Of a stretch of 6,322 nt of DNA, positions 348-4,204 are shown piece after piece; position 1 is the first letter of the stretch, and the number at the start of each line of letters is the position of its first letter. A model generated the notes under the pieces. The model was not told where the DNA came from and made no database searches. It saw only the letters and a program-made list of their open reading frames with translations. This stretch comes from Piscirickettsiaceae bacterium (GTDB taxonomy: Bacteria > Pseudomonadota > Gammaproteobacteria > Nitrosococcales > Methylophagaceae). The stretch spans positions 1-6,322 of the forward strand of contig JAUXFA010000076.1 of assembly GCA_030620285.1 (NCBI GenBank), read 5' to 3'. Both the position numbers and the translations under genes were made by a program.

Positions 348-1085
348 TCACCATTTTTTTTGGCCTTCACGCGCAGCTTGCAGGTTCGCCTCATACCATT
401 TCTTCTTAGCATTTTGAGCTTTGGCCACTGCAAGATTCGCTTCATACCATTTCTTTTTAAGATCGGCATGAGGATTAGAATTAACAATCAAATTAGCTTC
501 ATACCATGGTTTATGTTTAAGGCTAGAACGTGCTGCGGCTAAATTTGCCTGATACCATTTTTTCTTAGTATCGTTATATTTTTCTTCATTGATTTCATAC
601 CAATGAGTTTGCGTAGGCGTAGCATCGAGATTAGCCTCATACCATTTTTCCTGACTAGCACGTGCAATTTCTAAATTTGCTTGATACCATTTTTTCTTAA
701 TATCTGCATGGGGATCGACATGCATATTCGCCTCATACCATGGCATGGCAGCATGCTCAGCGGATTGCTGATTTGCTTCATACCATTTTGCACGATCAGC
801 ACGCACTGAAATCACGGCAGCTTTTAAATTAGCCTCATACCACTTTTTCTTAGCATCTAAATGTTGCTCTATATTCGCTTGATACCACTTCTTTTGACCT
901 TGACGAGCTGTCTCAGTATTTGCTTTATACCATCTCTGCTTAAATTGATTTTTCCTGACAAGTGCAATATTCGCTTCATACCATTTTTTCTTAGTATCCA
1001 TATGAGGATCAACTACTAAATTAGCTTCATACCATGGTTTAGTTTTGCGACTATCTCTTGCAGTTTTTAAGTTCGCTTCGTACCA
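348..1085 (-). repeat. Tandem degenerate coding repeats, 42-57 bp period
   Basis: Fifteen copies of a TGG-TAY-[GCA]AR-NNN-AAY core (Trp-Tyr-Glu/Gln/Lys-Ala-Asn) recur every 42-57 bases and fill the gene. Core codons differ between copies: Glu as GAA or GAG, Ala as GCG, GCT or GCA, Asn as AAT or AAC. Intervals in residues are 17, 17, 17, 15, 15, 19, 15, 17, 15, 14, 16, 16, 19, 17 and 15, all multiples of three bases, so the reading frame is kept throughout. The array is old or under protein-level selection rather than a recent DNA expansion. Confidence 0.92.
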
Positions 1086-1115
1086 TTTAGTTTTCACATC
1101 GACCGTTATATTCAT
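348..1115 (-). CDS. WYEAN-repeat protein of unknown function (15 degenerate repeats)
   Basis: I do not recognise this 255-residue protein. After ten leader residues it consists of WYxxN motifs whose Trp lies at 11, 28, 45, 62, 77, 92, 111, 126, 143, 158, 172, 188, 204, 223 and 240, with a sixteenth Trp as the last residue (255). Spacing is 14-19 residues. Trp, Tyr and Asn are invariant in all 15 motifs; position 3 is Glu 11 times, Gln three times and Lys once; position 4 is Ala except for Ile at the 172 copy. Linkers are Lys/Ala-rich and often end KKK or KK before Trp. There is no Cys, no signal peptide and no membrane segment, so a basic cytosolic protein is expected. Codons vary synonymously between copies, which argues for selection on the protein. 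The ATG has a GAGGT ribosome binding site 9 bases upstream and a candidate promoter. A scaffold/linker, a nucleic-acid or polymer binder, or a multi-core peptide precursor are all conceivable; none is shown. Confidence 0.9.
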   Translation of the reverse strand: MNITVDVKTKWYEANLKTARDSRKTKPWYEANLVVDPHMDTKKKWYEANIALVRKNQFKQRWYKANTETARQGQKKWYQANIEQHLDAKKKWYEANLKAAVISVRADRAKWYEANQQSAEHAAMPWYEANMHVDPHADIKKKWYQANLEIARASQEKWYEANLDATPTQTHWYEINEEKYNDTKKKWYQANLAAARSSLKHKPWYEANLIVNSNPHADLKKKWYEANLAVAKAQNAKKKWYEANLQAAREGQKKW

Positions 1116-1124
1116 CGTCTAAAT

Positions 1125-1129
1125 ACCTC
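1125..1129 (-). promoter_or_regulatory. Ribosome binding site of the WYEAN-repeat gene
   Basis: The minus strand reads GAGGT here, 9 bases before the ATG at 1115. This is a good Shine-Dalgarno match and supports the repeat gene as translated and correctly started. Confidence 0.7.
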
Positions 1130-1146
1130 AATAAATCTTTATATTG

Positions 1147-1176
1147 ATAGTACATGAGATGAAGCTGGTTTCACAA
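1147..1176 (-). promoter_or_regulatory. Candidate sigma-70 promoter of the WYEAN-repeat gene
   Basis: On the minus strand a TTGTGA -35 box (1176-1171) and a TACTAT -10 box (1152-1147) are separated by 18 bases. Transcription would begin near 1140, about 25 bases before the ATG, leaving just enough leader for the GAGGT site. The repeat gene could therefore be expressed independently of the gene upstream. Inferred by eye only. Confidence 0.4.
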
Positions 1177-1219: not shown

Positions 1220-1657
1220 CTACTCAAAGCAGCGTTTTTCGGCCTTAACTTGTTGCAACATAGCGATTTGCTGTTCTATTTGTAACATCCGACGCTGCTC
1301 TTTTTCATCAATCAACGCCGAGTATGCTAAATAAGTAAATCCAACCCATTCTCCAATGATGGGCACTGTTCCAATTACAGGCAATGAATCAATCGTGATT
1401 AATGTTGTCGCTATTTTATTGGCATCGTCTTGATAAAACTCGGGCTTATAACTATATCGGTAAGGATGCAAATAGCGAATATTATTATCTAATGTGACAC
1501 AACTAAGTTGTCTGATATCATCCGTAGCCTCAACAATAGGTGGCTCGAAGTAGATTGGTTCGCTTGGAATAGGTAATTCAGTCAATGCCAAAGCCAGAGA
1601 TGTAAACCCAAATAAACTCATCGCTATAGCAGAAATTAATGCCGATTTAATACTCAC
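1220..1657 (-). CDS. Small exported hypothetical protein
   Basis: Unrecognised protein, 145 residues from the GTG chosen here. A short basic N-terminus and a hydrophobic stretch end at an ALA motif near residue 24, a typical Sec signal peptide with signal peptidase I cleavage. The mature part opens with a Pro/Glu-rich stretch and has a Tyr-rich patch (LHPYRYSYKPEFY, about residues 63-75). A hydrophobic segment at about 82-116 could be membrane-embedded, and the Gln/Glu/Lys-rich C-terminal tail is probably helical. Cys53 and Cys143 are the only cysteines and could form a disulfide. It most likely sits in the periplasm or on the inner membrane. Start choice: an in-frame ATG at 1675 would add six residues but has no ribosome binding site, whereas GAGGT lies 9 bases before the GTG at 1657. 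It is divergent from the PilZ gene at 1820 and lies 104 bases upstream of the WYEAN-repeat gene. Confidence 0.75.
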   Translation of the reverse strand: MSIKSALISAIAMSLFGFTSLALALTELPIPSEPIYFEPPIVEATDDIRQLSCVTLDNNIRYLHPYRYSYKPEFYQDDANKIATTLITIDSLPVIGTVPIIGEWVGFTYLAYSALIDEKEQRRMLQIEQQIAMLQQVKAEKRCFE

Positions 1658-1666
1658 TTGCGGACT

Positions 1667-1671
1667 ACCTC
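1667..1671 (-). promoter_or_regulatory. Ribosome binding site deciding the GTG start at 1657
   Basis: The minus strand reads GAGGT here, 9 bases ahead of GTG. The alternative ATG at 1675 lies upstream of this site, with no purine-rich motif before it. An ACTATAGT palindrome just upstream (1686-1693) contains a TACTAT-like -10 element, which would start transcription very close to 1675 and also favours the downstream GTG. No good -35 was seen. Confidence 0.5.
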
Positions 1672-1675
1672 TCAT

Positions 1676-3241: not shown

Positions 3242-4204
3242 TTATTTCGCCGCATTTTGTTTATCAAAAAACTCCGTCAATGTCGCCGCTAATTCTCGCG
3301 GTTGGAATTTTGGTACATAAGCATCGGCCCCTACACTTTTACCCATGCTCATATTCGCATCAGCGGTTAATGACGAATGCATAATAACGGGTAAATGTTG
3401 TAACCGTGGGTCATCTTTTATCCTCTGCGTTAAGACATAGCCATCCATTTCAGGCATTTCCACATCCGTTAATACTAACTGAATTTCGGTAAGGATATCC
3501 TCTCCTCTAGCTTCACATTTATCTGCCAAATCATTCAGTAGTCGCCATGCCTCAGCACCATTGACCACCCCCATATGTTGAATACCCATATGATCAAGAG
3601 CCTTTGTAATTTGTGTTCGGGCAACAGCCGAATCATCAGCAAATAGAATCGTCTGTTTCTGTTCTAAATCTAATTTATCAATACCATCAAACAGCTCTTC
3701 CTCATAGAACCCGCCCGCATCTGCTAGCACTTTCTCCACATCCATAATCATCACTAAGCGATTATCATCCAGCTCTGACACGGCTGTGACCAAACCACCT
3801 AGTCGTTTTGACAATAAGGGTGGTGGCGCTTTTACTTGTTCCCAATTCAAGCGCTGAATCGTATCAACAGCCGTCACTAAAAATCCTTGAATATGGGTGT
3901 TATATTCCGTGATCATTAATATTTTAGGCTCATCATTTGACTGTAAATTACAAAATTTCTGCAAATTAATAATTGGCACCATCTCACCACGTAAACTGAC
4001 AAAACCTTCAATACCCTCTGGCATTTCAGGAGCACTGGTGATGTCAGGAATATTTAAAACCTCACGCACTTTAAACACATTAATGCCAAAGGCTTCATTA
4101 CGGCCCGTTTCATCATTAGTTCCTAAACTGAACAATAGAACTTCGAGGTGGTTTGTCCCCGCTAATTTCGTCCGCTCATCAATTGAATCTATTAATGTCG
4201 CCAT
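3242..4204 (-). CDS. cheV: Chemotaxis protein CheV (CheW domain plus response-regulator receiver)
   Basis: A 320-residue protein with the standard CheV layout. Residues about 15-165 form a CheW-like coupling domain (LLFSLG, FGINVFKVREVL, GFVSLRGEMVPIINL, VSELDDNRLVMIMDVEKVL) that joins chemoreceptors to the CheA kinase. Residues about 184-318 form a receiver domain with the acidic pair Asp190/Asp191, phospho-acceptor Asp247 (LVLTDVEMPEMDG), the Ser277 switch residue (VIMHSS) and Lys299. All key residues for phosphorylation by CheA are present, so CheV probably tunes receptor-kinase signalling or adaptation at the polar receptor array. The ATG at 4204 has only a weak purine-rich stretch upstream (GGAAAAAGAA); another ATG at 4220 is out of frame. 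coq7 follows after 70 bases, and rnr diverges 385 bases upstream. No other chemotaxis gene is in the window, so it is an orphan cheV, as is common in gammaproteobacteria. Confidence 0.95.
   Translation of the reverse strand: MATLIDSIDERTKLAGTNHLEVLLFSLGTNDETGRNEAFGINVFKVREVLNIPDITSAPEMPEGIEGFVSLRGEMVPIINLQKFCNLQSNDEPKILMITEYNTHIQGFLVTAVDTIQRLNWEQVKAPPPLLSKRLGGLVTAVSELDDNRLVMIMDVEKVLADAGGFYEEELFDGIDKLDLEQKQTILFADDSAVARTQITKALDHMGIQHMGVVNGAEAWRLLNDLADKCEARGEDILTEIQLVLTDVEMPEMDGYVLTQRIKDDPRLQHLPVIMHSSLTADANMSMGKSVGADAYVPKFQPRELAATLTEFFDKQNAAK

Follow-up and report, generated by a model that had tools for sequence, protein, structure and literature searches.

The window, i.e., the whole stretch of 6,322 nucleotides that was analysed, contains a gene coding for a protein built of WYxxN repeats, with a ribosome-binding site, promoter-like elements and a neighbour gene with a signal-peptide-like start lying 5' of it (Table 1). 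The 255 residues of the repeat protein hold 15 WYxxN motifs and its last residue is a 16th Trp. The successive Trp spacings are 17, 17, 17, 15, 15, 19, 15, 17, 15, 14, 15, 17, 19, 17 and 15. By comparison, 20,000 shuffles of the protein's own composition gave at most 2 WYxxN (mean 0.08). The number of motifs and the range of Trp spacing (14 to 19) announced in an earlier note on this DNA are thus found again on recounting.

Table 1. Features of the repeat gene and its surroundings in the window.
Feature	Position	Strand	Basis or remark
WYxxN-repeat protein gene	348..1115	minus	ATG start, 255 aa, stop codon included
Whole 15-unit array, units of 14-19 residues each	354..1085	minus	unit table
Units 1-5	1085-1035, 1034-984, 983-933, 932-888, 887-843	minus	unit table
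Units 6-10	842-786, 785-741, 740-690, 689-645, 644-603	minus	unit table
Units 11-15	602-558, 557-507, 506-450, 449-399, 398-354	minus	unit table
Module of about 180 residues, unit types in fixed order	351..887	minus	49 modules aligned
Ribosome-binding site GAGGT	1125..1129	minus	sequence; position kept in orthologues
-10-like TACTAT	1147..1152	minus	conserved upstream pattern
-35-like TTGTGA, 18 nt from the -10-like element	1171..1176	minus	conserved upstream pattern
Neighbour gene, signal-peptide-like start	1220..1675	minus	Pfam: nothing above cut-off
Tandem PilZ-domain genes	1820-2128, 2199-2549	plus	

The protein has a pI of 9.6, no Cys, and contents of 14.5% for Lys and 6.3% for both Trp and Tyr; no signal-peptide-like start was seen. 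The units differ from one another in their synonymous codons, as already remarked in the earlier note, and Tandem Repeats Finder detects no array at the gene in the DNA of the window. The array is thus a diverged one and not the product of recent slippage.

The good ribosome-binding site and the candidate promoter of the earlier note both have counterparts in the orthologues. The former occupies the same position in them. A promoter-like pattern (TTG-N3-N15..19-TANTAT), written after inspection of the same upstreams, is present in 38 of the 40 distinct 110-nt upstream regions (with an 18-nt spacer in 34), against a mean of 1.2 and a maximum of 6 upstreams for 200 mononucleotide shuffles. In most upstreams the element, in the form TTG-N3-N18-TANTAT, lies 36-45 nt 5' of the ATG. 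A generic sigma-70 scan of the window does not list this promoter-like site. One of the two upstreams failing the pattern is that of locus L040, where the leader with its ribosome-binding site is tandemly duplicated and the -10-like part is shifted to -67.

The family profile matches 53 of the 57 genomes of the window's own family (Methylophaga and relatives) and none of the 6 genomes of another family of the same order, i.e., 53/63 for the order. In a wider draw from the class, 4 of 369 genomes match, all 4 belonging to the own family. The absence of homologues, which in the earlier note would, together with a lack of transcript or peptide, have pointed to a non-functional expansion, is thus discarded. 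A pattern scan of named genomes, which reaches close relatives only, gave 45 loci (Methylophaga, Piscirickettsiaceae, Methylophagaceae, Gammaproteobacteria and Pseudomonadota). The gene is missing from four genomes of the family (G022, G029, G031 and G070). In total 53 complete ORFs of 202-427 residues were collected, 40 of which are distinct since the two genome collections overlap. The distinct orthologues have 11 to 23 WYxxN and a net charge of +4 to +30; all 40 have a pI of 8.8-9.8 and none contains Cys. In Methylophaga muralis Bur 1 (locus L058, 5964-7234) the repeat gene is shorter and broken into two overlapping frames; similar splits are seen in G064 and perhaps also in G067.

The repeat gene occupies a syntenic locus whose other genes are housekeeping genes of a long conserved block. 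Fifty stretches were surveyed, some genomes being represented twice and contig ends truncating many of the stretches. The counts per gene are as follows: repeat gene, 48; exported-looking neighbour, 45; BamE, 40; Fur, 39; RecN, 39; carbonic anhydrase, 37; NAD kinase, 37; COQ7, 33; metallo-hydrolase, 26 (names are those of the Pfam matches for the representative locus L090 and for the window). The carbonic anhydrase gene (PF00484 in L090) lies one or two genes downstream of the repeat gene. This could be taken in favour of a multivalent scaffold, in which each WYxxN would be a sticker for a pocket of one partner protein and the array would cluster copies of that partner; but among housekeeping genes that stay together over a long syntenic stretch, closeness says little. 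In most other stretches a single PilZ-domain gene is found in place of the tandem pair. Between COQ7 and the exported neighbour, relatives carry a LonB-like protease gene in 28 of the 50 stretches and a large membrane-sensor-like gene in 10 of the 50; neither is present in the window.

The exported-looking neighbour belongs to the locus, and its share in the function is only putative. It has orthologues in 51 of the 57 family genomes and is absent from all 4 genomes lacking the repeat gene; G018 and G069 carry the repeat gene and lack the neighbour. The protein is restricted to the family, with a conserved YFEPP motif, the segment LHPYRYSYKP and two conserved Cys; it gives a weak match to DUF4112, below the cut-off. 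In G029 (a reduced genome of 1.1 Mb, locus L073) COQ7 is directly followed by a carbonic-anhydrase-like gene, the repeat gene and the neighbour gene both being missing. In the same locus a BamE-like ORF (3322-3582) contains a run of SDK repeats.

The order of the Trp spacings recurs among orthologues. The module of about 180 residues occurs once in the window protein and twice in the orthologues of about 400 residues. The alignment of 49 of the 55 modules has 27 invariant columns (the six others were left out, having more than 300 residues or 263 residues, or being the near-duplicate from L046). Over 776 units, WYxxN is near-invariant and the linkers are variable. The values of dN/dS are 0.011-0.148 for the 15 pairs with finite dS among the 17 aligned (18 pairs were listed, one being left out for an incomplete gene; dS is saturated in 2 of the 17). 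It is concluded that the repeat protein is real and selected, and that purifying selection reaches every part of the chain, the linkers as well as the order in which the unit types follow each other. The comparison of orthologues suggested in the earlier note thus yields both a variable number of motifs and a constrained sequence.

These results bear on two readings. (i) A scaffold agrees with a near-invariant motif between variable linkers, with 11 to 23 copies of it per orthologue and with purifying selection; on the other hand, conservation goes further than the motif and extends to the unit types and their succession, i.e., more than plain stickers need. (ii) The tandem short motif and the family-restricted distribution would agree with a precursor of many copies of a modified peptide, or with a non-functional expansion. 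Either is highly improbable in view of the dN/dS values, the conserved promoter-like element and the conserved locus, in which no gene for peptide modification or export was found. The multi-core peptide precursor put forward in the earlier note is unsupported, because the neighbours are housekeeping genes and selection extends to the linkers and the order of units.

AlphaFold gives a pLDDT of 51.7 and a pTM of 0.20 for the whole protein (13 sequences), and 62.5 and 0.22 for the module (49 sequences). The models are of low confidence: helices are predicted, with no confident arrangement between them. Structure prediction had been proposed in the earlier note; it supplies helices and no confident fold. 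In the module, a long helix is predicted for example at residues 141-178, the block means being 71-84 in the last four tens of residues. The lack of a confident compact fold is consistent with a scaffold. The long predicted helices would rather suit a structural rod or ruler, in which they would pack against each other or between copies and set a distance, possibly at the membrane together with the exported neighbour, whose gene follows the repeat gene in its absences. This is unlikely: the pTM values are low, the neighbour has a signal-peptide-like start and the repeat protein none, and two genomes keep the repeat gene without the neighbour. Moreover, a 15-residue coiled coil has hydrophobic residues at a, d, h and l, according to a passage of PMC9858780. 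With Trp as a, the repeat has Ala at position 4, Pro, Ala, Lys or Thr at position 8 and Thr or Ser at position 12, so that positions 8 and 12 depart from this pattern and the pentadecad coiled coil was rejected.

The raw CAI of the repeat gene is like that of ribosomal genes. When the codon usage of the neighbours is taken as reference, values as high are reached in 23 of 1000 draws in one genome (a weak effect) and in 355 of 1000 in the other (no effect); high expression is thus not retained on the basis of codon usage.

No convincing match to the window protein was obtained in Pfam, NCBIfam, PHROGs or the PDB sequences. Against Pfam it gives NMD3_OB and DUF7588 alone, both below the cut-off, and the 49 modules give, at E<=0.01, PF01156 in 2, PF05332 in 1 and PF21192 in 1. 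The curated Pfam models for repeats, among them TPR, HAT, Sel1 and pentapeptide, give no match, and the repeat protein is outside every Pfam repeat family tested. A clear hit to a characterised repeat family, by which the earlier note would have been refuted, is absent from these searches. The NUMOD models likewise give no match to the window protein, and no Pfam nuclease domain is found in it, in a 412-residue orthologue or in the 49 modules. PHROGs give nothing at E<=0.1 for the window protein, and no nuclease PHROG at E<=0.01 for any of the 49 modules. A tblastn search against 50,697 phage records, with the low-complexity filter on, found no match. Literature searches, including one with WYEAN, returned no paper recognisable as dealing with the repeat protein or the array. 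The statement of the earlier note that no known repeat family fits is thus in agreement with the curated databases; it does not extend to the unit itself, which has relatives in nuclease-associated arrays.

These relatives came from direct searches. A single-sequence search retrieved 2 family members and 7 other proteins; the family profile, scored on the 7997 candidates sharing most words, retrieved 3 family members and 8 non-family proteins at E<=0.001. Among these 8, four have a Pfam HNH domain, one a GIY-YIG domain and two an HNH-like motif recognised by pattern, P0011 having neither. All 8 carry tandem 15-residue W(Y/R)EAN units, e.g., WYEANLERTKATSRA. The earlier note expected its scaffold or peptide reading to be new in either case; the unit, for its part, resembles those of these HNH and GIY-YIG proteins. 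A second search, started from the array of one HNH nuclease and covering proteins of 0.55-1.75 times the query length (free-standing arrays of other sizes are thus under-sampled), gave 52 proteins, i.e., 51 besides the query. In the resulting set of 59 array proteins, a Pfam nuclease domain is precomputed for 39 (36 HNH and 3 GIY-YIG), an HNH-like motif is recognised by pattern in 8 more, and 12 are without sign of either; 4 of these 12 have PHROG endonuclease matches, which may rest on the array itself. Two of the sign-free proteins, P0021 and P0050, have by eye a similar short C-terminal segment (L-G...P.ELI..KR..L..LR/KR) and may represent the array as it occurs in phages without a nuclease attached. 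Against solved structures, the matches that P0004 obtains above noise fall on its HNH domain, with weak matches to engineered RecA within the array region, and P0007 has nothing below E 0.06.

The spacing of Trp is exactly 15 in 237 of 286 cases for the 59 array proteins, each having at least one such spacing. Among the distinct orthologues (40 in number) the commonest value is again 15 (380/835), followed by 17 (189) and 14 (113); spacings of these last two lengths, which come with Pro, are nearly absent from the nuclease arrays. On both sides the 15-residue units have W1, E3, A4 and N5 in common, with basic residues towards their end. Their column profiles are correlated over columns 2-15 (r=0.635; 0 of 20,000 position permutations as high), but the relatives were gathered via shared 5-residue words, so that the WYxxN-like motif itself was selected for. 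With the motif columns left out (columns 6-15), the correlation is weak (r=0.29; 135 of 20,000 permutations as high). The hhalign comparison of two-unit profiles gives a probability of 97.8 and a score of 43.8, against 0.2 and 5.5 for the reversed profile; over 40 permuted profiles keeping Trp, the best score is 19.5 (probability 76) and the mean 7.0. In the reverse search with the HNH nuclease P0003, the repeat gene is the best match in 52 of the 57 family genomes, via the array of P0003. The five genomes without match are the four lacking the repeat gene and G076, where it is a fragment at a contig end. Among the P0003 matches listed, those of G003, G020 and G062 include some to the HNH or N-terminal part. 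A 15-residue unit carries a net charge of +0.75 in the Methylophaga family and of +1.89 in the nuclease arrays.

The lower charge and the weak correlation outside the motif columns could reflect convergence, i.e., helices rich in Lys, Ala and Glu around WYxxN, with a function elsewhere. For example, the protein, rich in Lys, Trp, Tyr and Asn and without Cys, would serve the methylotroph as a sink for reactive aldehydes. We consider it quite unlikely: the profile score is far above those of the reversed and the 40 permuted controls, the commonest period is 15 on both sides, the match is reciprocally the best in 52 of 57 genomes, and a chemical sink needs no fixed order of motifs.

The reading that we favour, tentatively and by analogy, is that the repeat protein is a nuclease-free basic helical array, which may bind DNA or RNA along its length without cutting. 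Two observations bear on nucleic-acid binding, i.e., the resemblance to nuclease arrays and the basic pI of all the distinct orthologues. For phage endonucleases of the HNH and GIY-YIG types, DNA-binding parts are described as beads-on-a-string modules, and the DNA-binding domain of I-TevI as winding round 20 bp and repressing by itself (passages of PMC2988022). From this precedent and from the position of the array beside cutting domains, we infer that the unit contributes to the holding of nucleic acid. In the nucleases the array would keep, or help to keep, the enzyme on DNA; in the Methylophaga line the holding part would have been retained, the cutter having been lost or never present. 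In the low-confidence model the units are mostly helical and present Trp, Tyr and Asn on one face, with the Lys-rich stretches opposite. The Lys-rich stretches would meet phosphates, and the Trp/Tyr/Asn face would contact bases, grooves or the helix that follows. The role would be architectural, nucleoid- or RNA-associated, with a reach set by the number of units. It must be added that a linker or ruler role in the nuclease arrays is as possible as nucleic-acid binding, and that a specific partner would account for the fixed order of unit types no less than a nucleic acid would.

The main rival of the nucleic-acid-binding array is the protein-clustering scaffold, which is possible though rather doubtful: it explains the motif and the changing number of units equally well and leaves the resemblance to nuclease arrays unexplained. 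The repeat protein is in any case outside the nuclease kind, having no catalytic domain and an irregular spacing. That a DNA-holding array of mobile-element nucleases became a cutter-free chromosomal core rod, modular, with 11-23 WYxxN units and organising the nucleoid or RNA, i.e., an architectural kind so far undescribed, is a more speculative proposal, conceivable rather than probable.

The marine methylotrophs concerned are a well-cultured group. The results tie their family-wide core protein, to which no domain is assigned, to a unit recurring beside nuclease domains of mobile elements and matched here by no curated Pfam model. If the array binds nucleic acid, this would explain the arrays of many nucleases and show one of them co-opted for an architectural role. 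Should it be a scaffold, the genomes would offer a natural series of 11 to 23 motifs for measuring the effects of valence.

Several known systems come near the repeat protein. The first is that of the W(Y/R)EAN-array nucleases (HNH, endonuclease VII-like and GIY-YIG; e.g., P0003, P0004 and P0009; phrog_1035). Common to both sides are the tandem 15-residue unit with W1, E3, A4 and N5, the basic residues near positions 10 and 13-15 and the richness in Lys and Arg. On the contrary, the window protein has neither nuclease domain nor zinc cysteines; zinc-ribbon cysteines are present in many, not all, of these nucleases and in none of the 40 orthologues. Position 2 is Tyr in the Methylophaga family and mostly Arg in the nuclease arrays. 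The family has less charge and unit lengths that are also 14, 17 and 19, whereas the nuclease arrays keep a near-constant spacing of 15, and its gene is a chromosomal core gene at a fixed locus. Two short phage families, phrog_14214 and phrog_36724 (58 and 88 positions), match the arrays of several collected relatives and thus seem to describe the repeat itself; at E<=0.01 they match none of the 49 Methylophaga-family modules.

The second system is that of the linker proteins of carboxysomes and pyrenoids, CsoS2 and EPYC1, which are multivalent and cluster many copies of a partner. They would share with the repeat protein a repeated aromatic/basic motif on a flexible chain, and differ from it in having a defined partner.

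The third is that of I-TevI and other phage homing endonucleases. The likeness lies in the extended modules in a row; at the level of sequence none was seen, the NUMOD models included. According to the same passages of PMC2988022, the DNA-binding part of these enzymes can act without cutting.
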